64,000 nucleotides of DNA from a virus (IMGVR_UViG_3300021964_007165:1-64000), one strand, 5' to 3'. Positions 6,998-40,897 are shown, numbered from the stretch's first letter. The notes: generated by a model not told the origin, from the sequence alone. Made by a program: numbers and translations.

Positions 6998-7393
6998 TCA
7001 AGGAGTTAGTTCTTCGTCAGATCTTTTCAATGCTTTAGTAAGGCCATATTTTTTAACATCACCGCTAAAAAGATGTAATTCAAGTGCTTTCTTTTCATCA
7101 AATACAATAATCATAGACTTAGTTAAGTAGTAAGGACAGGTAATAAAACGATCTAACCAAATTACTGTATTAGTTGTAAGTTCAAAATCTTGTGGAAATG
7201 GTACTTCGTAACTTTGTATATCTAATTTTTCAGTTAAAAATAAGTAACCTGCATCAGTTAATCTCAACCCGCCTGTTTCTTTGGCTCGTGTATTTTGCCA
7301 CCATGCTGACAAATACTGTGTCACAGTTGCTTCTGTTATACTAATGCCTGCTTGTTTTAAAAAGACCTTTGTATATGTCTCTTTCCAGTTCAC
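6998..7393 (-). CDS. Conserved hypothetical protein of T4-like marine phages
   Basis: A 131-residue protein beginning MNWKETYTKVFLKQAG. It has a winged-helix-like feel in 'ITEATVTQYLSAWWQNTRAKETGGLRLTDAGYLFL' (residues 18-52), but this is only a pattern impression. The C-terminal half has alternating hydrophobic strands. It shares its start codon base with the stop of the thermonuclease gene, so the two are coupled. No catalytic motif seen. Confidence 0.55.
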   Translation of the reverse strand: MNWKETYTKVFLKQAGISITEATVTQYLSAWWQNTRAKETGGLRLTDAGYLFLTEKLDIQSYEVPFPQDFELTTNTVIWLDRFITCPYYLTKSMIIVFDEKKALELHLFSGDVKKYGLTKALKRSDEELTP

Positions 7394-7863
7394 TATTTGT
7401 TTTCCATCAATGCTACTGCGGCATTGTGATCTTTTTTAGTTACAATACCTTCTCTAAGCAGTTTTTCTCTGTTGGCCATATGCTTCATCTGAATCTCATC
7501 TTTGCTACCGCCAAAGTATGCTACAGCATGACCGTCTTCTATCATCATGTCAGTTAATCTTTTATCACCCAAGATAAAGTCGCCTAAGATACGTCCGAAC
7601 TTTCCTTTTTTATCTTCACCACTTCTATCAATCTCTGTTTTTAATACCTGCATACTTCCTATAGGCATATTATCTTTGACATACTTTTTAGCAGTCAATC
7701 CAAAAAGTTTTTCTACTTTGTCTCTTGTTCTTGATTCTGGGGTGTCGATCCCCATCATTCTAACTCTTTCTTTTCTAAGCCATACTCCAAAACCTAAATC
7801 TATATCAACATCTACTGTGTCGCCATCTACAACACGTAAAATTTTACACTTATACTCGTACAT
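7393..7863 (-). CDS. Thermonuclease-like (SNase) nuclease
   Basis: A 156-residue staphylococcal-nuclease-fold protein. The calcium/catalytic motif DGDTVDVDIDLG lies at residues 13-24, 'ERVRMMGIDTPES' at 32-44 supplies Arg and Glu, and 'GKFGRILGDF' at 87-96 supplies the second Arg. There is no signal peptide, so it should act inside the cell. Likely roles are host DNA or RNA breakdown for nucleotide supply, or processing of phage nucleic acid. It is followed directly by the 131-residue unknown gene. Confidence 0.85.
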   Translation of the reverse strand: MYEYKCKILRVVDGDTVDVDIDLGFGVWLRKERVRMMGIDTPESRTRDKVEKLFGLTAKKYVKDNMPIGSMQVLKTEIDRSGEDKKGKFGRILGDFILGDKRLTDMMIEDGHAVAYFGGSKDEIQMKHMANREKLLREGIVTKKDHNAAVALMENK

Positions 7864-7867
7864 TGCT

Positions 7868-8158
7868 TTATCCCTCTTTTACTATTTCGCCCTTGTCTAA
7901 TTTAACAACTACAAACTCTTCTGTGTTGAATAATGTGTTTAATTTTTTAGCAAGATTGTGTGCATGTCCTGGATTAGAAAATGAAACTTTCTTATATTTA
8001 GGTCCAGGAAAACTTGATAGAGAATTTTGAGTTTTTAAGTTAAAAGGCTTTCCTTGATAAAATACTGCCCAGATAGCCTCAGCCGCCAGAATTTGATCTG
8101 ACTTATAAGTCTTTTTGTCAATATACTCTAACAGTATTTTAGGTTTAGGTCTGCTCAT
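7868..8158 (-). CDS. Small conserved hypothetical protein
   Basis: A 96-residue basic protein (MSRPKPKILLEYIDKKTYKSDQ...). The middle, 'AAEAIWAVFYQGKPFNLKTQNSLSSF', resembles short conserved proteins of marine T4-like phages, but I know no function. GAGGA precedes the ATG and overlaps the stop codon of the candidate small gene at 8171-8284. A late promoter box lies 31 bases upstream. Confidence 0.55.
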   Translation of the reverse strand: MSRPKPKILLEYIDKKTYKSDQILAAEAIWAVFYQGKPFNLKTQNSLSSFPGPKYKKVSFSNPGHAHNLAKKLNTLFNTEEFVVVKLDKGEIVKEG

Positions 8159-8170
8159 ATATACGTGTCC

Positions 8171-8284
8171 TCATAATAAACTACGTATATATTTATCTTT
8201 ATTTCTCAGTAATTGTGATATTAAATGCTGTAATGATCCGCGACCTGCGGCATCTACATTTGCATTATTCTTTGAAACCGCCAC
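8171..8284 (-). CDS. Candidate small ORF (37 codons) in +1 frame of the preceding gene
   Basis: Starting at a GTG inside the last codons of the 83-residue gene (8265-8516), this frame runs through the otherwise unexplained gap and ends in TGA, which overlaps the GAGGA ribosome site of the next gene. The product would end in a helical stretch (SLQHLISQLLRNKDKYIRSL). It may instead be a +1 frameshift extension of the 83-residue protein. The codon choice looks like that of a coding region, but the late promoter box at 8190-8197 lies inside it, so I am unsure. Confidence 0.35.
   Translation of the reverse strand: MAVSKNNANVDAAGRGSLQHLISQLLRNKDKYIRSLL
8190..8197 (-). promoter_or_regulatory. T4-like late promoter box (GATAAATA)
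   Basis: GATAAATA on the minus strand, followed by TATACGTAG, 31 bases before the ATG of the 96-residue gene at 7868-8158. Confidence 0.5.
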
Positions 8285-8516
8285 CGTCCATTTCGACGTT
8301 GACTACTTCCTGTTCTGCTCTGACAGCATTTTCCTTAACGTACTTTTCTAAATCGCCATAAAGTCTTGCACTTATTTGCCCTAAAGTTAATGCAAGATTT
8401 TTCGCTTGTTGCATAGTAAGTTTAACTTCTTTTGCATTAGAGGACTCAGCAGTTTTTACTTGCTGGATAAAAGTCTCAATTGGTGATGTATTAATTGGAT
8501 CTTTTGTCATCTGCAT
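8265..8516 (-). CDS. Small conserved hypothetical protein
   Basis: An 83-residue, mostly helical protein: 'SPIETFIQQVKTAESSNAKEVKLTMQQAKNLAL' spans residues 10-43 and the tail is acidic, ending EMDGGGFKE. A second Met two codons later could also be the start. It overlaps the upstream gene by 26 bases. No motif links it to a known family. Confidence 0.55.
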   Translation of the reverse strand: MQMTKDPINTSPIETFIQQVKTAESSNAKEVKLTMQQAKNLALTLGQISARLYGDLEKYVKENAVRAEQEVVNVEMDGGGFKE

Positions 8517-8979
8517 TTGCTTTAGATAGTTCTTGACGCATTGTCAGTTCGTCTTTAAATGGACCTTTAGAAACATAGTTTTCAACAGTAACAAGTTTAG
8601 GACAAAAACTTCTTACCCAGCCCTTATCAAATTTGATAATATAGTAACCTGCACAGTACAAACTTTTGCTTTTTTTACTTTTTGTAAATAAAGGTAATTT
8701 ACGTTTTACATCGTACATTGCATTATACGGAACACAAGAAGTTGTAAAACCGTGTACTTCTTTTTCAGGTGTAGTAACAGTTTCAGCATCTTTAATGCCC
8801 CATTCGATGTCAATATCTTTGACTAATAGTTTCTCAGTTTCGTAAAGTTTTGTTTGAGTATTACAGCAATACATATAAGATTTATCTTCTTGCTTTGATA
8901 AAGTTCCTATACGTTCGCCGTCTTCCTCAACAATCCAAAACTTTCCTGCTACGATAGGGTTGGCTTTAATTCTTGTCAT
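8491..8979 (-). CDS. Conserved hypothetical protein of T4-like marine phages
   Basis: The start is set at the ATG at 8979, which has a GGAGGA site five bases upstream; a longer frame would overlap the ParB-like gene by 53 bases. The 162-residue product begins MTRIKANPIVAGKFWIVEEDGERIGTL and contains a 'CCNTQTKLYETEK' segment and a 'GYYIIKFDKGW' strand, suggesting an SH3-like or beta-rich domain. Function not recognised. Confidence 0.6.
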   Translation of the reverse strand: MTRIKANPIVAGKFWIVEEDGERIGTLSKQEDKSYMYCCNTQTKLYETEKLLVKDIDIEWGIKDAETVTTPEKEVHGFTTSCVPYNAMYDVKRKLPLFTKSKKSKSLYCAGYYIIKFDKGWVRSFCPKLVTVENYVSKGPFKDELTMRQELSKANADDKRSN

Positions 8980-9505
8980 ATAATCCTCCAAAGGTTTCTG
9001 GTGTTGCAACAGTGGCATTTAAACTTTTATTAGCCGCCAGCGCCGCATATATTCTTGTCCTGCCGTCAATGACGTATTTTTCATTGTCTAATTCTAAAAT
9101 CAATGGTGGGCGACAAGTTCCTAATTCAACTGCTTCAAGTATTGGTTCTAAAGGAAATTCTCGATCCCTGTAATCACGTTTATCACGTTTTTCCATCTCT
9201 TCTATATAAACTTCTTTATACCCTTCTTTGCCACTTATTCTCTTTATGTTTTGTAAAGTATACATATCTTCAGGCATATTATCTAAATTATTTAACTTCA
9301 AAATATCATCTATAGATAGATTTTGGACAGGTACTTTATCTAATAATTTACCAATTTTTGTTACTACATATTCACGTAAATAATCATCTATTGGAACCGG
9401 ACGTCCTAAGTTAACTGGTAGAGATTGTACAAATTCTTTTACTTTTGGCTCTGGACAACCGATTAACTCATAAGCATCTAAAAAATTTTCATCTATTTTT
9501 TCCAT
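8966..9505 (-). CDS. ParB/sulfiredoxin-fold protein
   Basis: A 179-residue protein. The C-terminal third has 'LEPILEAVELGTCRPPLILELD' then 'KYVIDGRTRIYAALAANKS', which matches the ParB-like fold: a 'PP/PI' segment, a strand, then DG-x-R-x-R in place of the usual DGHHR. ParB-fold proteins bind or cut nucleic acids or act as CTPases and ATPases. The N-terminal 90 residues are helical and unrecognised. It abuts the FEN-type nuclease gene (TAATG-like overlap at 9505), which hints at a role in DNA metabolism. A second ParB-like domain occurs in the 593-residue protein at 32634-34415. Confidence 0.65.
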   Translation of the reverse strand: MEKIDENFLDAYELIGCPEPKVKEFVQSLPVNLGRPVPIDDYLREYVVTKIGKLLDKVPVQNLSIDDILKLNNLDNMPEDMYTLQNIKRISGKEGYKEVYIEEMEKRDKRDYRDREFPLEPILEAVELGTCRPPLILELDNEKYVIDGRTRIYAALAANKSLNATVATPETFGGLYDKN

Positions 9506-10485
9506 TAAATATACCTTGCATTCAATGGTTCACTATAACTTTGTACTTGTTCCGATATTCTATTAAGTTCGTGTTTAGCACAAAATTTCATAAGTTTGAC
9601 ACCGACTTGTGATACTTCTTTTGGCTTGCTGTTGTCTGCTATTACCTGTGCTAAAATTTGTTTAATCTCATCAGGTTGTGCAGATAAGTCACAAAGTGTT
9701 ACGTTACGTTGATAGTCTTCAAGCACACGATGTTCTACACCTTCGTGATCTAACCAACGTTGTAGCATAAGGTTATTCCAGTTGTAACCCTTAGATTGTT
9801 TATCTTCAAATGCTTCTTGTAAGCCTACTTTGTTCTTAGTACCTTTTACTCTTACACCCGGATATGCAGAGAATACATTGTCACTTGTATCACCACGCAT
9901 ACATTTTTCAAACAACAACCATTCAGGATTGGGTGCAGGCTTCGGTTCTTTGGTTTTCTTATCGATCACCGGCTTGCCCTTGTCGTCAAAATAACCTTCG
10001 TGTGTAATAGTTACATTTTGTACACCATTGTATTGTTTTACGTTAGGCGCAATAAGTTGTGCAAAGTCACCATCTGTACTAATAATAACATGATTATCAT
10101 CAGGGTGCGATTGTACCCAACCTGCAATCAAATCATCTGCTTCAAGTTGCGGATGTTGCATCACAGTACAATTAGTTTTTGTAGTTACAAAGTCTTTAAA
10201 CTCATCAAACATTTCCCAGAATACTTCTTCTTCCTCTTGCTGACTTGCAGTAAGAGCCGCACGAGCATCACTTCTATTTCGCTTGTAAGGTTCGTAATAG
10301 TCTTTACGCCAACTGCGTCCTTCAAGACAAAAGATAACATGACTACCATCAAAATCTTGCCATGCTTTTCTAATTCCATTTAATGTAATATGAAAAGCCA
10401 TACCAACTTTGTCTGTAAGATTGCCTCTCACAACATGTCTTGCACGAAAGAATGTGTTAGCAGTATCTACAAGAATATAAGTCAT
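9505..10485 (-). CDS. rnh: 5'-3' exonuclease, T4 RNase H/FEN family
   Basis: A 326-residue flap-endonuclease-type protein. It shows 'ILVDTANTFFRARH' at residues 4-17 with the first metal-binding Asp, the basic 'GRSWRKDYYEPYKRNRSD' near 56-73, 'HPQLEADDLIAGW' near 111-123, 'ISTDGDFAQL' and 'CMRGDTSDNVFSAYPGVRVKG', in the family's order. In T4 this enzyme removes RNA primers and flaps on the lagging strand. The length is close to that of T4 RNase H (305 residues). A consensus sigma70 promoter lies just upstream, so early expression is likely. Confidence 0.85.
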   Translation of the reverse strand: MTYILVDTANTFFRARHVVRGNLTDKVGMAFHITLNGIRKAWQDFDGSHVIFCLEGRSWRKDYYEPYKRNRSDARAALTASQQEEEEVFWEMFDEFKDFVTTKTNCTVMQHPQLEADDLIAGWVQSHPDDNHVIISTDGDFAQLIAPNVKQYNGVQNVTITHEGYFDDKGKPVIDKKTKEPKPAPNPEWLLFEKCMRGDTSDNVFSAYPGVRVKGTKNKVGLQEAFEDKQSKGYNWNNLMLQRWLDHEGVEHRVLEDYQRNVTLCDLSAQPDEIKQILAQVIADNSKPKEVSQVGVKLMKFCAKHELNRISEQVQSYSEPLNARYI

Positions 10486-30383: not shown

Positions 30384-31034
30384 TTATGTGTCGAGAGTCT
30401 CGTCTTTTGACTTGTATGCCCATTCGTCTGTGTGTCCTACACTCCACTTAGGTGTATTTTCAACTGTATAGTTTTGAGTGCATACTTTAAAGTCTGGAGT
30501 AAGTCTATCTGGATTTACAAGACTTTGATCTGTGAATACTACTCTATTGTTTGGTTGTGCGGCAAATTGTCCATTGTCTAATTTAATGATATTAAAAGTT
30601 TTGTGTTCAGGATCATGCTCGCTAAAATTAATATCAAGTGTTGAGTGTTGTGCGTGACAAGTATCAAGTGTAAACATATATTCACCCTTGTGCATCTTTC
30701 GGTCCTTGCCAAAGAACTCGCAGTCGCTGAGCATTGGCTTTTTGATCACTGTGATGTCATAGTCAAAGCAGTCCCATATCTGTAGAGTGTCAAGAGGAAG
30801 TTGATTGTCCTTATCATAATCTTCTTTCCACACAAATGCTGAGATGGGTAACTTGTCATATAGTGCGCCATACTCTAATAATAATGTTTCAAAGTACAAT
30901 GCTTTTGATTGTATACTTCTAATGCTTATCCAAGTGCCAGGTGTGAGTTCACCGTGTCCTTTTTGATGATCGTAGAGATATTCTTTTTTTACATATACTT
31001 CAACAGGTGGTAGATTATGCACTAAGAAAGCCAT
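30384..31034 (-). CDS. Conserved hypothetical protein of marine T4-like phages
   Basis: A 216-residue protein starting MAFLVHNLPPVEVYVKKEYLYDHQKGHGE. It carries 'GTWISIRSIQSKALYFETLLLEYGALYDKLPISAFVW' and 'MLSDCEFFGKDRKMHKGEYMFTLDTCHAQHSTLDINFSEHDPEHK'. I associate it with many marine T4-like genomes but know no function. It is preceded by a late promoter box and an AGAGGA site. Confidence 0.6.
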   Translation of the reverse strand: MAFLVHNLPPVEVYVKKEYLYDHQKGHGELTPGTWISIRSIQSKALYFETLLLEYGALYDKLPISAFVWKEDYDKDNQLPLDTLQIWDCFDYDITVIKKPMLSDCEFFGKDRKMHKGEYMFTLDTCHAQHSTLDINFSEHDPEHKTFNIIKLDNGQFAAQPNNRVVFTDQSLVNPDRLTPDFKVCTQNYTVENTPKWSVGHTDEWAYKSKDETLDT

Positions 31035-31063: not shown

Positions 31064-31071
31064 TATTTATG
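31064..31071 (-). promoter_or_regulatory. T4-like late promoter box (CATAAATA)
   Basis: CATAAATA on the minus strand, 29 bases before the ATG at 31034, with a AAGAGGA ribosome site between. Confidence 0.55.
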
Positions 31072-31104: not shown

Positions 31105-31659
31105 CTACATCTTAACGCAGTTGTCTACAGTCTTGCCACCTTTTTTCTTGGTGCCCATACGCTTGTAGCCTTTCCAGCATACTTTGCCGTCAACGCCTTT
31201 TTGTTTTTCTTCTGGGAGTGTAGTGTAACTTGGATTGCCACATTCAGAGCAAATACCTAATTTGCTTTCTAACATAGATGCTAAAGATGATTTATAAGAT
31301 TCGTCTTTCTTTTCTTTTTTGTCTTTGATAGCCTTCTTCATTGGCTCTTTTTTATCGCCGTCTTTGTCAACGTCAAGAAAGTCTGGTTTAGATTTCTTTG
31401 CTTCTTGAACTTCATCAAATTTCTGTTCATAATCCATGTGATGATAAACTGAACTCATATAGTCAGCGGCCTTAGTAATTTTAGATTGAACCCATCCTTC
31501 AAGACCTTCTTTTTCAGTTACGCCTTTAAGCATTTCATGAAGTTTAATTGCATACTTTGCAACCTTGTATAATTCAGCACGAGCCATTTGTACTTCGTGA
31601 TCTGACTCAACTTTATATGCTAAATCTGCTAAACCTTCTTTTAGATCTTTTTGTCTCAT
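31105..31659 (-). CDS. Candidate internal virion protein with basic Cys tail
   Basis: A 184-residue highly charged protein. Residues 1-75 are helical (ELYKVAKYAIKLHEMLKGV). Residues 88-120 are a Lys/Asp/Glu-rich 'KPDFLDVDKDGDKKEPMKKAI' linker. The tail begins with a CxxC-like 'CSECGNPSY' near 137-145 and ends 'GKVCWKGYKRMGTKKKGGKTVDNCVKM', with two further Cys. The tail resembles, in make-up, those of the proteins at 32634-34415 and 35932-36594. It may be packaged in the head, as argued in the findings. Confidence 0.5.
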   Translation of the reverse strand: MRQKDLKEGLADLAYKVESDHEVQMARAELYKVAKYAIKLHEMLKGVTEKEGLEGWVQSKITKAADYMSSVYHHMDYEQKFDEVQEAKKSKPDFLDVDKDGDKKEPMKKAIKDKKEKKDESYKSSLASMLESKLGICSECGNPSYTTLPEEKQKGVDGKVCWKGYKRMGTKKKGGKTVDNCVKM

Positions 31660-31660
31660 G

Positions 31661-32629
31661 TTAGTTCCTCTTTACGGTTTTACCGCCCATTAAATTATTT
31701 GACATATCTAAAGCATTAATTGTTGTACCATCTGCTTTTTTCTTTTGGGGTGCTTTAGGCATTCCCTTTGAATCTTTTGGTCTTTGTCCGTAAGCCATGC
31801 TTGGGTTAGCAACACTTGCAATATTACCTGCGGAAGTTGCTCCTGCTGTTGCAGTTTCTGTTTTAATACCAGCAAGTGCTTTCATTTCATTAGCAAAGTC
31901 CGATGCTTGATTTTGTTGCTGTGTAGAAGCACCTGATACTAATTTGGCTAATTGCATAATACTATCTGCTTCGTCAACTGGCTTGTCTTTTTCTAATGAT
32001 GCTTTACGCTTCATTAGTTCTTTTTTAAGTTCTGGATCTTTTGTTGTGTTTGGATCCGCTTGTAAATCTTGGATTGCTTTCTGTTTGGCATCGTAATCAT
32101 CTTTGTCTTTGGTAGGTGTATAGTTAGAAGATTCTGCGGGTCCTGCTTGAGCACCTTTTTCTGCTTGTTTCACTAACATCATAAACTTTTGACGCATTGC
32201 TTGATTACCAAGAATAGTTGTTAACTGCTTTGCAAAAGGAGCAATCTGTTTAGCAAGATTACCTTGTAATGCACCGCCTGATGCAAGTTTATCTAAACCT
32301 TTTGCCATCATAGCGCCTGAGCCGCCTTTTGCACCCATAGCCGCACCAGCCATTTTAGCACCTTGTGCTGTTTTTTGTTGTGCTTTAGGGTCAGCACCTG
32401 AAGCCATTCCTGCTACTTTGCCAGCAATGCCGCCTTGTTGTTGTGCCGCTGATTTAACATCGTCTTTTGAAGCACCTGTAGCATTTGCTACTGCGCCTAC
32501 AGCCGCATTAGCACCTTTTTGTGCTACTGCACCAGCCGCTTTTTTAACAGAGCCAGCCGCTTTTTCTGCACCTGTTTTTAATGCATTTAACGGATTTGCT
32601 TCGGTTGTTGTTAATTCTCTTAGTTTCAT
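31661..32629 (-). CDS. Ala/Lys/Gly-rich candidate internal virion protein
   Basis: A 322-residue protein with low-complexity Ala/Gly/Lys helices: residues 15-130 are full of 'GAVA', 'GAKM' and 'GAKGGSGAMMAKG'. An acidic/basic coil is at 165-225. The N-terminus MKLRELTTTEAN resembles a short capsid-targeting leader. The base composition is richer in G and C than that of its neighbours because of Ala and Gly codons. No enzyme motif. Late expression is inferred from neighbours. Confidence 0.55.
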   Translation of the reverse strand: MKLRELTTTEANPLNALKTGAEKAAGSVKKAAGAVAQKGANAAVGAVANATGASKDDVKSAAQQQGGIAGKVAGMASGADPKAQQKTAQGAKMAGAAMGAKGGSGAMMAKGLDKLASGGALQGNLAKQIAPFAKQLTTILGNQAMRQKFMMLVKQAEKGAQAGPAESSNYTPTKDKDDYDAKQKAIQDLQADPNTTKDPELKKELMKRKASLEKDKPVDEADSIMQLAKLVSGASTQQQNQASDFANEMKALAGIKTETATAGATSAGNIASVANPSMAYGQRPKDSKGMPKAPQKKKADGTTINALDMSNNLMGGKTVKRN

Positions 32630-32633
32630 ATTA

Positions 32634-34415
32634 CTATTTACCTTTTTTACCGCCCTTCATGTTAGCACACCAGTGGTACATTTTGCCTTTTTCACCACTG
32701 TATTTACGGGCCTTTGCTCTTAAACTACTTACTGATCCTTTGCAACTTGCACCTGCTTTTTTGACTCTTCCTGGTTTACTTTTGCCCTTCTTCTTGCCAT
32801 CCGCAAAGTTTTCAGTTATATTTTGAACATAATCATCAACCATGATAACACGAGCCATGTCTTTACCTTGTGTAGCAAGTGCATCATATCTATGATGCCC
32901 GTTGACTATTCTTCCTCTACGATCAACTACGATTGGTTCGTATGTATCTTCACGTACTCTCTTATATTGTTTTGTAAGTTTGCCAAAGTCTCTATCTTTT
33001 TGAACAGGCTTAATATTTGACAATTTCATTACACCTTGTTTGCCGTCTATATTCTTGCCTTTGATTTGTGGTGGCGGATTACCGTCAGTAGGTTCTGGAT
33101 CATAATTATGATCTTGATATCCACTTACATCACCTAATGAATATCCTAAACGTTTTAAATTTTTAACCATATGCTCGGCTTCTTTTTTGCCTCCAAAAAA
33201 GTTGATGTAAATATCTTGATCACCCATATTAACATTATCTTTGTCAACAGATTGCACATTTGCCATGTTGCGGCCTATTTTCATAAAGTCGTAATCTGTT
33301 GCATCACTATCAACTGCTACACTATTTTTTGGTAGTGGAAGTAGATCGCCTTCGTTGGCTTTGAAGTCTGATGAAAATGCTTTTTTATCACCTTTGGCCG
33401 CCGCGGCTCTTCTTGCTTTTATTTTATCTGCTACACTTTGTTCCTCTGGTGGACGTTTCTTCTTAATAGTTGCACGTTTAGGACTGCGACCAATAGTGAA
33501 TCCCATAATTTCATTTGTATCTTCTTCTGCTGGTTTTGTAAAATAATCTTTTAGATTTGAAGCCGTTCTTTCAAACTTATGATCCTTATGCTTGAATCCT
33601 ACACCACCTGCGCCTTCCCACTTACTAACATTTTGACCAAAGTCGTCAATTAATATGTTAGGAGTGCCATCTGGATTTTTTGCATATGCTTGTTTATCTG
33701 TAGTAATAATAACTTTCTTAGGAGGAAAAGCACTCAAGTTTTTCTTTACCCATTCACGTTTGTGTGGCTCTGCTCTATCATCATTTGCCAACGGAGCAGA
33801 TAGGATATTATATTCTCCTTTAATATTTTTAATTATACCTAACAATTTATCAGCATTTGCTGTCGGTTTTAGTTTAAGCCAAAAGTCATCTGTATCTCTA
33901 ATCTTTTGCAGTGCTTGGTCAACATTCTTAATTTGTTTCCAGTCGCTAACACCCATCATTTTAGTCCAAGCACCAAAGAAGTCTACCAGTACCCCATCCA
34001 TGTCAACGTAAATTTCTGAATCGCTTGAAAGTTCTTTACCTTTTAATTCGTTAACTTGACTTTCTTTTGCCATTTTAGTTGCTGTTGCATACATAACTGC
34101 TTCAGCATCTTTGCCGTAACGGTCTTTAAAATCGCCCTTAGACTTCTTCATACCTTTAACGTATTTTTCTTTTTTCTTTTCTTCGCCTTTAGTTAATGAA
34201 CGTTCTTCAACGCTTTCCGCCATACCTAAATTAAATAATACGTTTGTTTTAGAACCTTTTACCTTTTTGCTTAGTGTAGGCGGACGTCCGTCTTTGTCTA
34301 CAGTGTTTCCAAATTTTGCGGCTTGTTTTTTAATAGCATCAACGCCAACATCGGGTGTAGTATTAACACCCTTTACAACACGACCACCATTTTCTTTTAT
34401 TTCGCTAAACTTCAT
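32634..34415 (-). CDS. HAD-phosphatase plus ParB-like fusion, candidate virion-packaged enzyme
   Basis: A 593-residue multi-domain protein. The N-terminus MKFSEIKENGG is a short leader, followed by a charged 100-residue region. A HAD 5'(3')-nucleotidase-like domain starts near residue 135 with 'YVDMDGVLVDFFGAW', includes 'FWLKLKPTANADKLLGII' and 'NILSAPLANDDRAEPHKREW', and ends with 'NILIDDFGQNVSKWEG'. A ParB-like domain follows near 490-520 ('YEPIVVDRRGRIVNGHHRYDALA'). The basic tail has Cys562 and Cys584 ('ASCKGSVSSLR...MYHWCANMKGGKKGK'). The combination is unusual. Roles could include nucleotide or DNA-end hydrolysis with DNA binding. It is coupled to the next gene by an ATGA overlap. Confidence 0.65.
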   Translation of the reverse strand: MKFSEIKENGGRVVKGVNTTPDVGVDAIKKQAAKFGNTVDKDGRPPTLSKKVKGSKTNVLFNLGMAESVEERSLTKGEEKKKEKYVKGMKKSKGDFKDRYGKDAEAVMYATATKMAKESQVNELKGKELSSDSEIYVDMDGVLVDFFGAWTKMMGVSDWKQIKNVDQALQKIRDTDDFWLKLKPTANADKLLGIIKNIKGEYNILSAPLANDDRAEPHKREWVKKNLSAFPPKKVIITTDKQAYAKNPDGTPNILIDDFGQNVSKWEGAGGVGFKHKDHKFERTASNLKDYFTKPAEEDTNEIMGFTIGRSPKRATIKKKRPPEEQSVADKIKARRAAAAKGDKKAFSSDFKANEGDLLPLPKNSVAVDSDATDYDFMKIGRNMANVQSVDKDNVNMGDQDIYINFFGGKKEAEHMVKNLKRLGYSLGDVSGYQDHNYDPEPTDGNPPPQIKGKNIDGKQGVMKLSNIKPVQKDRDFGKLTKQYKRVREDTYEPIVVDRRGRIVNGHHRYDALATQGKDMARVIMVDDYVQNITENFADGKKKGKSKPGRVKKAGASCKGSVSSLRAKARKYSGEKGKMYHWCANMKGGKKGK

Positions 34416-34630
34416 TTTTTACGTCCTCTAAATTGAGGCATACCGCCAGTCATGTGTGGCAAACTAAACCATAGTTTAAACCAATCTGGATCTCCAGGTT
34501 TAATTCCTTTTTCTCTTTCAATTTTTCTTTTTTCGGTTCCTGTAATAGATAGATTTTCATCTACAGGCTGTAATCCTTTAAAAGAGTATTCGCCAATACC
34601 TGCTAACTGTTTTAAAGTTTCTAAATCCAT
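34412..34630 (-). CDS. Small hypothetical protein
   Basis: A 72-residue protein beginning MDLETLKQLAGIGEYS, with a basic middle (KRKIEREKGIKPGDPDWFKLWFSLPHM) and a Gly/Arg-rich end (GMPQFRGRKK). It sits between two candidate internal proteins in the late run and may be one of them. The end of the gene overlaps the next by 4 bases. Nothing else can be said. Confidence 0.5.
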   Translation of the reverse strand: MDLETLKQLAGIGEYSFKGLQPVDENLSITGTEKRKIEREKGIKPGDPDWFKLWFSLPHMTGGMPQFRGRKK

Positions 34631-35601
34631 TATGCTGACGCCTTAAGTTCTGCTTTTAATTCTTTTTCTAATTCACTAACGTAACTGTTATCAGGTTTAA
34701 AGTTTTTAATTACCTCAGTCATTTCTTTTCTGGACTTGCCTTCTTTTTCTGCACTAACTAATTCATCATATAATTTTTTACCACCATATAATGCTATAGC
34801 AATACCAACTGCTGGCAAACCGTATTTTAATAATCCTTTTACAATAGGATGATCAATAATATCTTGTACAAATTCTATTGCATCTGATATCCAACTTATA
34901 CCTTTCCATGCAACTAATGAAAAACTAATTAGCCATTTGTTGTTCCATAAAAACTTACCAAGTGTTAGTGCATGTTTACCGTATTTTAATGTATTCATTA
35001 TTGCTGGTATAGCAAACTCATCTACTTGTTCTTCTTGTTTACCCCCAAGTATTGTTGATAAGTTATCAAACATTTTTTTAGCATAAGGTTGTGCAGACTT
35101 AGTTACACCTTTGCTAAATGCCTCAAAGTTATTATCCATAACTGCTTGACGCATTTTACTTGCACTCATCCCTGATGCATCATCTGCATCTGGATTACGT
35201 GAAAGTCTTTGAAATTTAATTTCTTCAAAGTCAAAGAACCCGTGATCTTTTTTAATACCGTTGTAATTTTCTAATAGTTTTCCTAACTTATCTTCACCTT
35301 CAAAGAATGTTACACTTCTGTAACCTCTTGCATATAAATCACTTGCGGCAAACATAATATTTTTAGATAATTCTATTTTAATATCTGGAAAACTTTTTCG
35401 TGCCCAATCTAATTTTTCATTTGGATTCAAAGGATCTGTTGGAAGTTTTGCGGCTCTGTCTGTCAAGAACAGTATTGCATCACCCGGACCTTGTTTAAGT
35501 GCTTCAACAAGTAAGCCGTGTCCTGTTGTAGCAGGATTTAATCTTCCTAAAGCAAAACTTACTTCTTTTTTTGGTGCTTCAAATAGTTCTCTCAAAAACA
35601 T
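34630..35601 (-). CDS. Nucleotidylyltransferase-domain protein with membrane segments
   Basis: A 323-residue protein with an N-terminal nucleotidylyltransferase fold. 'FALGRLNPATTGHGLLVEAL' at residues 16-35 holds the HxGH-like TGHG, and 'DASGMSASKMRQAVM' near 141-155 matches the ISSTxxR-like motif. This resembles NMN adenylyltransferase or pantetheine-phosphate-type enzymes found in phages. Residues 225-275 form two likely membrane helices ('WLISFSLVAWKGISWI', 'YGLPAVGIAIALYGG'), an unusual addition. The N-terminus MFLRELFEAPKK is like the capsid-targeting leader of T4 Alt. It could be packaged and act on entry. Confidence 0.6.
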   Translation of the reverse strand: MFLRELFEAPKKEVSFALGRLNPATTGHGLLVEALKQGPGDAILFLTDRAAKLPTDPLNPNEKLDWARKSFPDIKIELSKNIMFAASDLYARGYRSVTFFEGEDKLGKLLENYNGIKKDHGFFDFEEIKFQRLSRNPDADDASGMSASKMRQAVMDNNFEAFSKGVTKSAQPYAKKMFDNLSTILGGKQEEQVDEFAIPAIMNTLKYGKHALTLGKFLWNNKWLISFSLVAWKGISWISDAIEFVQDIIDHPIVKGLLKYGLPAVGIAIALYGGKKLYDELVSAEKEGKSRKEMTEVIKNFKPDNSYVSELEKELKAELKASA

Positions 35602-35930
35602 TAGTACTCGCCTTGTTTAAATCCGTCTACTTCTTCTTCGTAAATTTGTTCAGCAAGTCCTTTTCGTTCGTCCATTGTAATTAAATCTTCTGGATTACCT
35701 GCAATATCAAATTTCTTAATATAATCATTAACACCTTGGTTTACCATAGGTAAAATAATTTCTAAGGCTTTATTAGAATCACCATTGTTATAGCAGTCTT
35801 GACATTTTGCCATAGTCGGGTAGTACATCTGTCTATAAAATCTTGTATCGTCTCGCATGTGACAAAGTAAGTCACTTGGAACATCATATGAAGGATTGTC
35901 TTCTCTACCTAAAATATCATCAAATTTCAT
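35601..35930 (-). CDS. Small conserved hypothetical protein
   Basis: A 109-residue protein from the ATG at 35930, which has AGGAAG eight bases upstream; an earlier start would lie inside the neighbour. MKFDDILGREDNPSYD is followed by 'VPSDLLCHMRDDTRFYRQMYYPTMAKCQDCYNNGDSNKALEIILPMVNQGVNDY'. It resembles an all-helical small conserved protein in T4-like phages. CxxC at 'KCQDC' could bind a metal. Confidence 0.55.
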   Translation of the reverse strand: MKFDDILGREDNPSYDVPSDLLCHMRDDTRFYRQMYYPTMAKCQDCYNNGDSNKALEIILPMVNQGVNDYIKKFDIAGNPEDLITMDERKGLAEQIYEEEVDGFKQGEY

Positions 35931-35931
35931 G

Positions 35932-36594
35932 CTACCACTTCCTGCAAGACCAATATCTTGCCTTATGTCTCGGACCTGGATTATCACAGTTGTGTCTTGC
36001 TCTAAAACTTCTGCGTCTTGCCGGGTTAGACTTTTTAATTTTCATATTAGGATCACCAAAGTTAACTTTTACTACATTACCTTTTGGATTCTTAACATAC
36101 ACTTTAAACTTCTTAACATCACCACGCATTGGCTTGCCAAGTTTTACTTTACGTCCTTGATACTCTGCTTCGTCTACAATTTCGTCTTCGTTAAACCATA
36201 GTTCGCCGTATGCATTATAAAAGTCGTCACCGTCATATGTTTCTTCGTCGATGTTAGAAAGTTCTTTGATTCTATCTAATTCGTCTGCTTCACCATATGG
36301 ATCTTCTGCTTCTGTGCCACATTTTACACACTTGTCACCATAATGCATTCCACTGTCTTCACCTTGGTCCATTAACAAATTATCCAATGCACCTTGACCG
36401 GTTTCGCCATCTGCTACAAGATCTTGATTGTCTGCTTCCCAGTCATCGATGTATTCTTGTTTTTCTTGTGGAGTCATTGAGAATTCATTTTCATCGCCAC
36501 ACTTTTTGCAGTTCCAAGTATATGCATAATCATCTTGTTCTTCTGCAACTTCGTTGACAGTTTCAGCAAGATAATCTCTAAATGTTTTAGTCAT
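35932..36594 (-). CDS. Zinc-ribbon-like protein with basic Cys tail
   Basis: A 220-residue protein with 'WNCKKCGDENEF' near 27-38 and 'KCVKCGTEAED' near 88-98, two CxxC knuckles that together could hold one zinc. The middle is acidic. The end 'VVKVNFGDPNMKIKKSNPARRRSFRARHNC...YWSCRKW' is strongly basic with two Cys and is of a type that I recall in marine T4-like virion-associated proteins. The leader MTKTFRDYLAETVNEV fits a capsid-targeting sequence. It is driven by a nested early/late promoter. Confidence 0.6.
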   Translation of the reverse strand: MTKTFRDYLAETVNEVAEEQDDYAYTWNCKKCGDENEFSMTPQEKQEYIDDWEADNQDLVADGETGQGALDNLLMDQGEDSGMHYGDKCVKCGTEAEDPYGEADELDRIKELSNIDEETYDGDDFYNAYGELWFNEDEIVDEAEYQGRKVKLGKPMRGDVKKFKVYVKNPKGNVVKVNFGDPNMKIKKSNPARRRSFRARHNCDNPGPRHKARYWSCRKW

Positions 36595-36613: not shown

Positions 36614-36642
36614 TATATAAAGTATTTATCACAGTTTGTCAA
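36614..36642 (-). promoter_or_regulatory. Nested early and late promoter
   Basis: On the minus strand, TTGACA (36637-36642) with a 17-bp spacer and TATATA (36614-36619) make a sigma70-like promoter. A GATAAATA late box (36623-36630) lies entirely inside the spacer. The gene at 35932-36594 starts 19 bases beyond the -10 box. Confidence 0.65.
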
Positions 36643-37288: not shown

Positions 37289-39541
37289 CTATGCTGTTAC
37301 AGATTTAGTTTGTGTTTTAGGCACGAGTATAATTTTGCGTTCTTTGATATCAATATGCAAATGTCCGCCATCCTTAAGTTCCCCAAACAGTAGTATTTTA
37401 CTTAAATTACTTTTAATTTCTTTATCAATAGTACGTTGTAATGGTCTTGCACCCATCTTCTTATCAAAGCCTACTTCTACAAGATAATCAATAGTATCAT
37501 CTGTAATGTCAACAGTAACATTCTTCTCTTTAAGCATATCACGCAGTTCAACAAGGAATTTACCTACAATCTTAATCATAGTATTCTTCTCAAGTTTGCC
37601 AAATGCAATTACTCCGTCAAGTCTATTACGGAATTCTGGAGCAAAGAACTTCTTAAGTTCAGTATCTTCATAGTCCATTTCCATATCTTCGTTGAAGCCG
37701 ATAGCATTTTTTTCTGCTTGTTCTGCTCCTAAGTTCGTGGTTAGGATTAACACAGCATTTTTTGCATCGGCTTCTTTACCGTTGCTTCCAGTAACTTTTC
37801 CATTATCCATTAATTGTAATAGGATCTGTGACACATCGGGATGTGCCTTTTCAATTTCGTCTAACAGTAGAACACAGTTAGGATGTTCTTGCAATTTAGT
37901 AATCAATTGTCCTGCATTGTCTTCGAAGCCTACGTAGCCAGGAGGTGAACCAATTAATTTAGCAACTGAATGCTTCTCTTGATATTCACTCATATCAAAA
38001 CGTACAAGTTCCACACTTAGTTCGTTTGCTAACTGTTTTGCAGTTTCGGTTTTACCCACTCCTGTTGGGCCCATAAACACAAAACTACCAACAGGTTTAT
38101 TCTCCGATTTTAATCCTGCTTGTGCTACAAGTATCTTATCAACAATCTCATCAATCGCTTTGTCTTGTCCGTAAACTTGTTTCTTTAAGTTTTCTTCAAG
38201 GTGCGCCAGATTACTTGATTCTTTTTGTGAAATTGTTTCTGGTGGTAATTTAATTGCTTTAGCAAGTTCAAATTCAATTTCTTCTTTGCCTACAATCTTG
38301 TCACCTTCAACTTTTTTCAAATTAAATCTTGAACAAGCAAGATCAATTAAGTCAATTGCTTTGTCTGGTAACTTCTTGTCAGCCATATATTTAACACTTA
38401 ACTTGATTGCGGCATCAATACCACTTTCAGTAATTATGGTCTTATGATAATCTTCGTAGTATTTTTTAATGCCTTGCAAAATAGATTTAGTTGTTTCTTT
38501 GTCTGGCTCGGATACACTAACACGCTGGAAACGTCTCATCAATGCACGATCTTTTTCAAAATACTTGCGGTATTCTTCCCAGGTAGTTGATGCCACTACT
38601 TTAATATCACCTTTACCTAAGGCTGGCTTTAACATGTTTGCAAGATCATTTGAACTATTACTTCCTCCTGCGGCTCCTGCACCGTTCATCATATGTGCTT
38701 CGTCAATAAAAATAATAGTTTTACCTTGTTTTTTAATTGCCTGCATAACAAGTTTAAAACGTTCCTCAAAGTCTCCTCTATACTTAGAACCTGCCAGCAT
38801 AGCACTAATATCTAAGTTATATACAGAATATTCTTGTAAAAATTCTGGTACTGCTTTATTAACAATATTCCATGCAAGGCCTTCAGCAATCGCAGTTTTA
38901 CCTACACCCGGATCACCTACAAGTAGTACATTATTTTTTGAACGTCTGCCTAATGAAAGTGCAATACTTTCTAATTCTTCATGTCTTCCAATTACAGGGT
39001 CTACTTTATTTTTTTCTACTTCTTTGTTTAAGTTTGTTGAAAACTCACGTAGTGCTTTTTGTGCCACTTGATTCATTTCTGAATCTTCATATACTGCTTC
39101 TAATTCGTTGTTGAGATAATCAGCAAAACCTTCTTTTGTTATTCCTGCCTTCTGAATATGATAGTATGACCAAGATTTCTTTTCATTCATAATACTTAAG
39201 AATACATCAGTAATTTCGATATTGTGTCTACCACTAAATAATACCTGTGTAAAAGACCTATTCAAAACACGTTCAACTGTTGATGTTTTCTTAGGTTTAA
39301 ATTTTTTAGAATTTTCAGCAGGTAATACAATATCTGTTAAATCATTTTTTAAGTAGTTTTCTATATTCTTTTTAATAAACTCAGGGTCTGCACCAGAACC
39401 TTCCACAATCTTAGAAAACTTTTCACTACATAACATTGCAAATAATAAATGTTCAAGAGTAACATACTCGTGATTTAACTTTTTAGCATCGTTCATTGCT
39501 TTGTCAAATACTGCTTGTAAGTCGTCGCTTGGTTCAACCAT
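37289..39541 (-). CDS. clpA: ClpA-type AAA+ protein unfoldase
   Basis: A 750-residue protein with the ClpA plan: an N-domain (residues 1-140), D1 with Walker A GDPGVGKT near 208, then 'TIIFIDEAHMMNGAG', and D2 with GPTGVGKT near 490. E. coli ClpA has 758 residues. The loop 'NAIGFNED' near 612 supplies the IG[FL] tripeptide that ClpA and ClpX use to dock ClpP. A phage unfoldase that docks onto host ClpP could redirect proteolysis. No ClpP or ClpS gene is seen here. It lies just downstream of the deformylase and DnaJ genes, in the same transcript. Confidence 0.85.
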   Translation of the reverse strand: MVEPSDDLQAVFDKAMNDAKKLNHEYVTLEHLLFAMLCSEKFSKIVEGSGADPEFIKKNIENYLKNDLTDIVLPAENSKKFKPKKTSTVERVLNRSFTQVLFSGRHNIEITDVFLSIMNEKKSWSYYHIQKAGITKEGFADYLNNELEAVYEDSEMNQVAQKALREFSTNLNKEVEKNKVDPVIGRHEELESIALSLGRRSKNNVLLVGDPGVGKTAIAEGLAWNIVNKAVPEFLQEYSVYNLDISAMLAGSKYRGDFEERFKLVMQAIKKQGKTIIFIDEAHMMNGAGAAGGSNSSNDLANMLKPALGKGDIKVVASTTWEEYRKYFEKDRALMRRFQRVSVSEPDKETTKSILQGIKKYYEDYHKTIITESGIDAAIKLSVKYMADKKLPDKAIDLIDLACSRFNLKKVEGDKIVGKEEIEFELAKAIKLPPETISQKESSNLAHLEENLKKQVYGQDKAIDEIVDKILVAQAGLKSENKPVGSFVFMGPTGVGKTETAKQLANELSVELVRFDMSEYQEKHSVAKLIGSPPGYVGFEDNAGQLITKLQEHPNCVLLLDEIEKAHPDVSQILLQLMDNGKVTGSNGKEADAKNAVLILTTNLGAEQAEKNAIGFNEDMEMDYEDTELKKFFAPEFRNRLDGVIAFGKLEKNTMIKIVGKFLVELRDMLKEKNVTVDITDDTIDYLVEVGFDKKMGARPLQRTIDKEIKSNLSKILLFGELKDGGHLHIDIKERKIILVPKTQTKSVTA

Positions 39542-40061
39542 ATTGTATCATTCCTTTAATTTTTTTAAAATATTTTTGTTGTTTCTTTTTTGCCATATCT
39601 AATTTCATCTTACTTACGCGATCAATATAATTGATGCCATATAGATGATCAAATTCATGTTGAAAGATTCTTGCATTCCATCCTTTAAACTCTATTTTAC
39701 ATTCTTTTCCGCTACTGTCAAGAAACTTTGCTACCAAAGCCTCTGCACGTTTTACCTTAAAAAATAATCCAGGAAAACTTAAACAACCTTCTTCACCTAA
39801 TACTGTTTGGTCTGATACTGCTTCAATACGTGGATTAATAATTGCAAACGATTCTCCGTCTTTATATCCTTCTAAATCTTTTGGCTCTAAAATAAAAATT
39901 TGTGCATCTAAATCAACTTGGTTAGCACTTAATCCAACGCCATGTTCTTTTCGCATGATGTCAATCATATTTTTTTCAATGTTTTTTGCATCTAATTTAT
40001 CAAAGTCAAACTCTTTTACTTGCTTTAACAAAGCCTGATGCGGATGATATACTAAGTTCAT
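39534..40061 (-). CDS. def: Peptide deformylase
   Basis: A 175-residue deformylase with all three motifs: GVGLSANQ at residues 41-48, EGCLSFP at 91-97 and QHEFDH at 134-139. It removes the formyl group from the first Met of new proteins using a metal held by Cys93, His135 and His139. Phage deformylases are common in marine T4-like phages and may speed host takeover. The Lys-rich tail (MAKKKQQKYFKKIKG) is longer than usual and could contact the ribosome. Overlaps both neighbours. Confidence 0.9.
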   Translation of the reverse strand: MNLVYHPHQALLKQVKEFDFDKLDAKNIEKNMIDIMRKEHGVGLSANQVDLDAQIFILEPKDLEGYKDGESFAIINPRIEAVSDQTVLGEEGCLSFPGLFFKVKRAEALVAKFLDSSGKECKIEFKGWNARIFQHEFDHLYGINYIDRVSKMKLDMAKKKQQKYFKKIKGMIQYG

Positions 40062-40897
40062 TCCTTAATCTCTCTTATTTTTTCGTATTGATCTTGGGTT
40101 AAATTTTTTGGAATAACGCCGTTTACTTTTAAGTAAACATTTCCAGATGTGCCTGAATTATAATCGGGTAAACCTTGCCCGCCTATACTTAAAACTGTGC
40201 CTGGTTGTGTGCCTCTTGGTATATTAATACTTATAGTTTTACCTGAAGGTAATGCAAGATTTGTGGTAGTTCCTAATATCATTTCAAAAATATCAATTGA
40301 TGTTGTTGTGTGTAAATTTAAATGGTCTACTTCAAAATTAGGATGTCTTTTGATCCTTACCTTGACATTTAAGTTACCTCTTGGAACTGTTGGAACGCTA
40401 TCGTCACCAAGTCCTCCATAACGTATGGTATCTCCATGTCTTGCGCCTTTTGGAATATCGATATTGACTGTTTGCTCTTTTCCAGTATTGGTTCTAAATG
40501 TAGCAATTATTCCTTTGCCTGTGTAAACTTCACCAAGTTCGATATCACAAGCGATTGTTATATCTCTATTTTGTTGTGGTCTACGTTGCTGTTGAAATCC
40601 TCTACCAAAAAATGTACTGAACATTTCATTTATGTCACCATTAAATTCAAAATTACCTGGTCCGCCAAAACCTTGTTGTTGGAATCCTGCTTGTTGTGGA
40701 TCAGTAGTTCCAAACTGATCATACATTTGTTTCTTTTGTGGATCGGTAAGTGTTTGGTATGCTTCGTTTAACTGTGTGAATTTTTTATGATCTCCGCCTT
40801 TGTCAGGATGATGCTTTGCCGCAAGTTTACGGAAAGCCGTTTTAATATCCTTTTCAGAGGCATTTCGAGAAACGCCTAATAGTTCATAATAATCCAT
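40058..40897 (-). CDS. dnaJ: DnaJ/CbpA-type Hsp40 co-chaperone
   Basis: A 279-residue J-protein. J domain at residues 1-65 with HPD at 30-32, then a Gly/Gln-rich linker (PQQAGFQQQGFGGPGNFEF) and two beta-rich C-terminal domains ('RDITIACDIELGEVYTGK', 'GTTTNLALPSGKTISINIP'). It lacks the zinc-finger Cys repeats, so it is CbpA-like. J proteins pass substrates to DnaK. It is the first gene in the chaperone run, with a consensus promoter. The predicted transcript start falls at or next to the ATG. Confidence 0.85.
   Translation of the reverse strand: MDYYELLGVSRNASEKDIKTAFRKLAAKHHPDKGGDHKKFTQLNEAYQTLTDPQKKQMYDQFGTTDPQQAGFQQQGFGGPGNFEFNGDINEMFSTFFGRGFQQQRRPQQNRDITIACDIELGEVYTGKGIIATFRTNTGKEQTVNIDIPKGARHGDTIRYGGLGDDSVPTVPRGNLNVKVRIKRHPNFEVDHLNLHTTTSIDIFEMILGTTTNLALPSGKTISINIPRGTQPGTVLSIGGQGLPDYNSGTSGNVYLKVNGVIPKNLTQDQYEKIREIKE

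Follow-up and report, generated by a model that had tools for sequence, protein, structure and literature searches.

A late gene cluster with T4-like leaders in a marine myophage encodes candidate head-packaged proteins

Known head cargo and the cluster under study

Phage T4 sends its internal proteins (IPI-IPIII) and Alt into the head by short leaders that are removed by the prohead protease, which cuts after L/I-x-E (PMC9026906). In cyanophages, a nucleotidyltransferase has been detected in virions, i.e., family T4-GC190 in S-SM1 by mass spectrometry (MS; PMC3037559), gp154 in S-CREM2 (3 peptides; PMC10665884), _140 in S-SZBM1 (2 peptides; PMC9146016), and an NMNAT-like protein, ORF91, in S-SCSM1 (PMC9602691). 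Here we analyzed a 64,000-nucleotide stretch of viral DNA (IMGVR_UViG_3300021964_007165:1-64000; hereafter, the window) that includes a cluster of seven genes at 36594-31105, one of which encodes a nucleotidyltransferase of this kind. An earlier inspection of the same DNA (hereafter, the sequence-only reading) had proposed that proteins of this cluster carry T4-like leaders.

The cluster is probably one late operon for head cargo, delivered with the phage DNA, and the sequence evidence makes T4-style head targeting and protease processing of its proteins likely. Analogy with T4 leads us to favor, with some reserve, their injection into the host cell.

A seven-gene late unit

The window is part of an IMG/VR virus record of 79,897 bp, whose source is a T4-like (Kyanoviridae-type) marine myophage. 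A Kyanoviridae-type contig of 156,563 bp (hereafter, G001) is colinear with the record at ~83% nucleotide identity, and Phage C48C1, Melnitz, and HTVC008M are more distant relatives of the same type. The seven genes are arranged head to tail, and the features of the cluster are as follows (a bar marks the predicted cut).

36623-36629, minus strand: late-promoter-like element ATAAATA (GTGATAAATACTTTA), 28 nt upstream of the start codon (ATG) of the 220-aa gene, the first in the cluster
35932-36594, minus strand: 220-aa acidic protein, N-terminus MTKTFRDYLAET, leader MTKTFRDYLAE|T (36562-36594)
35601-35930, minus strand: 109-aa protein, leader-like N-terminus MKFDDIL, assuming that translation starts with the ATG at 35930
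34630-35601, minus strand: 323-aa nucleotidyltransferase (cytidylyltransferase/NMNAT-like), N-terminus MFLRELFEAPK, leader MFLRELFE|A (35578-35601)
34412-34630, minus strand: 72-aa basic protein without a leader, scaffold-like LETLKQLAGI motif
32634-34415, minus strand: 593-aa HAD 5'-nucleotidase/ParB-like fusion, N-terminus MKFSEIKENG, leader MKFSEIKE|N (34392-34415)
33600-34013 and 32829-32942, minus strand: nucleotidase and ParB-like parts of the fusion, which also has a VMYATATK module and a C-terminal YHWC module
31661-32629, minus strand: 322-aa basic low-complexity protein, leader MKLRELTTTE|A (32600-32629)
31820-31876, minus strand: mimic inside the 322-aa protein, LAGIKTE|TATAGATSAGNIA, scaffold LAG[LI] joined to the junction E|SATAGATSAGNVA of the major capsid protein (MCP)
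31105-31659, minus strand: 184-aa basic protein, leader MRQKDLKE|GLADLAYK (31636-31659), C-terminal CWKGY..NC module
31064-31070, minus strand: next late-promoter-like element, just past the last cluster gene, serving the gene at 30384-31034 and marking the end of the unit

All four N-termini named in the sequence-only reading were recovered exactly on the minus strand (35932-36594, 34630-35601, 32634-34415, and 31661-32629), and the 184-aa and 109-aa proteins are two further leader-like members. Its description of the bodies as enzymes or charged low-complexity proteins was also borne out, with Pfam and PHROGs profile matches confirming the nucleotidyltransferase (phrog_3041, E = 1.4e-33; also phrog_395) and the fusion, whose HAD part is a 5'(3')-nucleotidase (PF06941, above its cut-off; phrog_2643, 3e-22) and whose ParB-like segment matched phrog_620 (6e-7). 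The nucleotidyltransferase keeps TTGH and SASKMR motifs and has a hydrophobic C-terminal domain. In a sequence search of PDB, the fusion had only marginal nucleotidase matches and the nucleotidyltransferase had no meaningful match, NCBIfam gave no matches, and the AlphaFold models of the two proteins were too poor for a fold search (pLDDT 40 and 57, respectively). The 220-aa protein has an optional CxxC zinc-ribbon-like insert and a C-terminal FRARHNC..ARYWSC module; among relatives, its leader and C-terminus are conserved and its middle is swapped. For the 109-aa gene, a GTG at 35987 is an alternative possible start, and orthologues start MKFDDIL, MNIDDL, MNIGDL, or MKLKEF.

Some of these bodies share parts. 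Short modules that are basic and contain paired cysteines (ARYWSC, YHWC, CWKGY..NC, and PKGFS) recur across unrelated cargo proteins in the window and related loci, as do the VMYATATK and WPSAYAS modules. The C-terminal domain of the nucleotidyltransferase (34630-35045), hydrophobic and possibly membrane-active, is found in about half of the relatives and is otherwise replaced or absent.

ATAAATA occurred 13 times in the window (31 expected), always on the minus strand, and its distribution there provides a ready map of late promoters. Across the whole record, 14 of 16 copies were 5-33 nt before an ORF start, mostly of tail or other late-type genes. Because such positions make up <5% of either strand, we conclude that ATAAATA behaves as a T4-type late promoter. 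One element precedes the 220-aa gene and the next precedes 30384-31034; therefore, the cluster would be exactly one late unit. The element GTGATAAATACT was found before the first cluster gene in 14/14 related loci (including two pairs of near-identical contigs) despite differing flanks. As judged from sequence alone, this would place expression of the cluster late, with the head genes, as in T4-type systems.

Leaders and predicted cleavage junctions

In BLOSUM comparisons with the two T4 leaders that the sequence-only reading had named, MTKTFRDYLAET scored 30 (shuffled N-termini reach 25 in 1.4e-4) and MFLRELFEAPK scored 14 (~1.3% of shuffled N-termini), and MKFSEIKENG and MKLRELTTTEA were singly not significant. 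Taken singly, only MTKTFRDYLAE|T is convincing as a leader. As a set, the leaders are not due to chance. A profile built from the leaders of T4 IPIII, Alt, and virion-detected cyanophage proteins gave the cluster genes higher ranks than the remaining genes of this record (p = 4.9e-5, biased in that the cluster was picked for its leaders), of G001 (p = 7e-4, not independent of this record), and of Melnitz (p = 1e-4) and C48C1 (p = 0.024). The last two are fair tests, with clusters delimited by synteny with the nucleotidyltransferase, and the result was thus replicated in Melnitz and weakly in C48C1. The shape M.[LFW].[EDQH][LIVF], chosen after seeing the leaders, matched 4/7 cluster genes and 1/~105 others (p = 2.8e-5). 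The likeness to leaders of T4 internal proteins and Alt claimed by the sequence-only reading therefore holds for the set and for the 220-aa protein by itself, and is weak for the others singly. Simple regex leader patterns were dropped as too loose, and a polyprotein arrangement was set aside given the marginal enrichment of internal hydrophobic-x-E sites (p ~0.025).

In the window, the junctions IKE|N, LFE|A, LAE|T, and LKE|G fit a hydrophobic-x-E cleavage site after the leader. Across 17 related loci the leader was kept while the bodies diverged, lost, or swapped domains, and leader length varied among orthologues with the hydrophobic-x-E junction usually retained. Orthologues of the 322-aa protein have VNE|AP, VTE|NP, VKE|NP, VRE|NP, or LKE|AP; other examples are MLLRELIE|GTRCWKGY and MRLRELINIIDE|GTRCWKGY (LIE| vs IDE|), and IKE|NGG, LYE|HGG, and VIE|AAG. 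In the HAD family, M1 and E8 are invariant in 12 sequences. At locus L002, the HAD protein is preceded in the same polypeptide by another ParB-like domain, which has a leader-like start of its own, and the site persists internally (LKE|FGG). A split of the HAD/ParB gene is seen at L004, where the second half starts MRLRELYKITEK, and at L005, where the C-terminal piece starts MRILEIILEA, so that each polypeptide has its own leader. Domains have also been transferred among the cargo proteins: in the window HAD protein, residues 298-350 match the nucleotidyltransferase of L009, and by eye the C-terminal segments of the L014-L016 nucleotidyltransferases resemble an insert of the L008 HAD protein.

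Leader-like starts were also seen elsewhere in the relatives. Tiny ORFs of 40-46 aa (L002:15173-15295, L009:15998-16123, and G001 105004-105144) combine such a start (MRYREILPE, MRFKEIVRE) with a SINCSNPKGFSQKAHC module, and a second late unit in the structural region of G001 (7052-9744; L021) has the starts MKVSQIVVESKK and MKLYELNTPN.

Head proteins of relatives and a scaffold/shell mimic

Neither the record nor G001 reaches the head genes; G001 breaks off inside a gp67-like gene (assigned by eye) that adjoins the portal. Contigs whose portals show 70-86% identity to the G001 portal encode a protease (~40% identity to the annotated head maturation protease of C48C1), a gp22-like scaffold (assigned by position), and an MCP. 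The protease was found via similarity to the C48C1 annotation; a Peptidase_S77 HMM search was uninformative, being silent in controls as in all records. MCP matches had [YW]LxE|[STA] at the expected propeptide junction in 40/40 cases, a count to be read with the search pattern, which itself required [YWF][LIVM]xE, and with a cut inferred from gp23. Leaders of the 220-aa protein family (DYLAE|T, DYLSE|N, and EYLKE|A) match this predicted MCP site, YL(S/A)E|S/T.

The scaffold C-terminus has a [KR]RLAG[LI] motif in the 25/25 copies listed. The mimic in the 322-aa protein joins this motif to the MCP junction and is preserved in orthologues; the shell (MCP) arm repeated in this protein is ATAGATSAGN. 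The 72-aa protein also carries LKQLAGI, and among 187 ORFs of G001 only the 322-aa and 72-aa proteins have [ILVMT][KRE].LAG[ILVM]. A tblastn search with the 36-aa mimic gave no phage match. Given this mimic, a prohead core role for the 322-aa protein appears more likely than an effector role.

Directly after the portal is a gene of 79-83 aa (G001 1107-1346, i.e., L021; also L036, L038, and L047) with MILRELFYFD or MNLREFFYFD at the N-terminus of its product, which may be a prohead core protein that shares the leader type.

Leaders of proteins detected in virions

The nucleotidyltransferases detected in virions have leaders of the same kind: MKKFSAFLNE|A in S-SM1 GC190, MKNFSSFLTE|A in S-CREM2 gp154, and MRFRQFIIE|A in S-SZBM1_140. 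By analogy, the window nucleotidyltransferase is likely present in mature virions. Four further leader-bearing proteins were detected in S-CREM2 virions (gp6, gp13, gp14, and gp136), among them a SAM hydrolase (MKDFDSFLEE) and a kinase (MKRFDAFLTE). An annotated Cas9-like nuclease detected in the same virions (OR473000 7704-10313; L033) has LRFASFMAE|A near residues 17-25 and a leader-like KTFRDFLN at its C-terminus, and is possibly a head-packaged nuclease.

Proposed mechanism and alternative explanations

In the sequence of events we propose, gp55-type late transcription very probably begins at GATAAATAC near 36629. A leader of 8-11 residues, of a T4 IPIII-like (h-x-x-h-h-x-E) or shorter LREL type, would then dock most cluster proteins onto the prohead scaffold core, and a gp21-type protease would cut after hydrophobic-x-E and free the bodies inside the head, both steps having good support. 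The protein would remain in the finished virion, as reported by others for nucleotidyltransferase homologues only, and, with moderate support, would exit with the DNA on infection. The enzymes, i.e., the cytidylyltransferase/NMNAT-like enzyme, the 5'-nucleotidase, and the ParB-like NTPase/nuclease, with intact active-site motifs, may then act on host nucleotides or NAD ahead of phage gene expression. The GH motif and SAxKxR are kept in all aligned nucleotidyltransferase orthologues, and DMDGV, S, K, and DD in all aligned HAD domains; the likeliest role, which we propose tentatively, may be to handle nucleotides or NAD as infection begins. A second nucleotidyltransferase-like protein of G001, outside the cluster (122805-123218; MTVGITFSTFDLFHTGH; assigned by eye), starts directly at its fold and has no leader, consistent with a leader that is specific to the cargo copy.

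The claim of the sequence-only reading that the proteins are sent to the head and cut there is supported by inference, through MS of homologues in virions, the protease, scaffold, and MCP of relatives, the junction, and the late promoter. The search it had called for, for a gp21-like protease and cut sites, yielded hydrophobic-x-E junctions in the window and a protease in relatives. Several observations weigh against head targeting and processing. The protease, scaffold, and MCP, taken from relatives, are outside the 79.9-kb record and beyond the end of G001. The 322-aa leader (TTE|A) is without a hydrophobic P3, and the canonical site is broken in the nucleotidyltransferases of L002 (ISE|P) and L014-L018 (ITSP, no Glu). 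In S-CREM2, neither a simple regex (p = 0.06; relaxed, 0.27) nor BLOSUM scores for the full protein set (p = 0.82; tail parts make up most of the virion proteins) separated detected from undetected proteins. S-SZBM1_191 and _192 have textbook leaders and were undetected in virions, and S-SZBM1_139 was detected without an obvious leader. The virion MS evidence concerns nucleotidyltransferase homologues from other phages, and the authors of the virion studies noted that detection after CsCl banding may reflect carry-over.

The cluster could instead encode proteins for assembly only, i.e., prohead core or scaffold helpers that are cut and then expelled or retained, with enzymes that work in assembly or are relics. 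In T4, the core proteins are cleaved and for the most part removed (PMC9026906), and the scaffold and shell motifs copied by the 322-aa protein, like the scaffold motif of the 72-aa protein, would suit such a role. We nevertheless consider it unlikely for the set, as the active-site residues of the two enzymes do not vary among relatives and nucleotidyltransferase homologues persist in mature virions. The proteins could also be ordinary cytoplasmic late or auxiliary metabolic proteins, their leader likeness arising from start-region composition and the MS matches from contamination. Most leaders are indeed weak individually, and carry-over is named as possible by the virion-study authors, but the leaders are enriched within the same genomes, the x-E junction is retained through indels and gene splits, and the same enzyme was detected repeatedly in independent phages, which together make this explanation quite improbable. 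The leaders might also address another assembly, such as the neck, portal, tail, or a membrane site, given that the 79-aa gene adjoining the portal starts MILRELF and that the nucleotidyltransferase of some relatives has a hydrophobic C-terminal domain. This is very improbable, in that the junction resembles that of a head protein and the motifs copied by the 322-aa protein are those of scaffold and shell rather than of tail parts.

If packaging into the head with delivery is correct, it would explain the recurrence of the nucleotidyltransferase in cyanophage virion proteomes and provide a sequence rule by which the proteins delivered at time zero by abundant ocean phages could be predicted; unnamed phage genes would become a testable effector set, and leaders could be used as packaging tags. 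A broader proposal, plausible though somewhat short of an even chance, is that a general delivery system is common to marine T4-like phages. Any body would be loaded into the head once it has a Glu cut site and a short leader, which is exchangeable; modules would shuffle freely among leader-bearing proteins, split genes would gain leaders, the scaffold/shell mimic would help to nucleate loading, and the delivered set would be an immediate-early counter-defence and takeover kit. This set would comprise the nucleotidyltransferase and nucleotidase/ParB fusion and, in S-CREM2, the SAM hydrolase, kinase, and Cas9-like nuclease.

Adjoining the cargo unit, consecutive genes at window 37289-40897 encode ClpA/B-like ATPase, peptide deformylase-like, and DnaJ-like proteins (assigned by eye).

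Comparison with known systems

The sequence-only reading regarded the injected proteins as a new set of effectors, which is partly so: the nucleotidyltransferase was already known from S-SM1, S-CREM2, S-SZBM1, and S-SCSM1 virions, whereas the HAD/ParB, 322-aa, 220-aa, and 184-aa cargo appear undescribed as far as we found. The LREL-type leader and the scaffold/shell mimic likewise appear undescribed, in a mechanism known in kind. In the literature consulted, we did not find the virion nucleotidyltransferase linked to a capsid-targeting leader, and "cyanophage" occurred together with "capsid targeting sequence" in one review only.

The homologous cyanophage virion enzymes (T4-GC190, S-CREM2 gp154, S-SZBM1_140, and S-SCSM1 ORF91) share phrog_3041/395 and intact motifs with the window protein, are in a syntenic cluster of leader-bearing genes, and had a leader in 3/3 cases checked. 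The window protein is ~28-37% identical to annotated phage homologues and has a hydrophobic C-terminal domain and an LREL leader. Polyvalent proteins (Iyer et al. 2017, PMC5512222) are alike in the idea of injected effectors, in the fusion of an enzyme with a ParB-like domain (here PF06941 and phrog_620), and in domain shuffling. They are giant multidomain proteins, whereas the window encodes small T4-like cargo with a predicted cleavable leader; Pfam, PHROGs, and NCBIfam revealed none of their domains (metallopeptidase/MPTase, DdrB-type ParB, and others), and the cluster is not classed as a member. Ejection proteins of the giant phages SPN3US and phiKZ are also head proteins that are cut after Glu and ejected, as would be the case here, but belong to another lineage with a different protease and propeptides.

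T4 IPI-IPIII and Alt have in common with the cluster a short hydrophobic leader, a hydrophobic-x-E junction, predicted late expression, small basic proteins together with an enzyme as candidate cargo, and a gp21-type protease (here in relatives). The bodies are unrelated: those encoded here comprise the nucleotidyltransferase, the HAD nucleotidase/ParB fusion, and modular proteins. Many of the leaders form a separate type, M-x-L-R-E-L, and one cargo protein carries scaffold and shell motifs.

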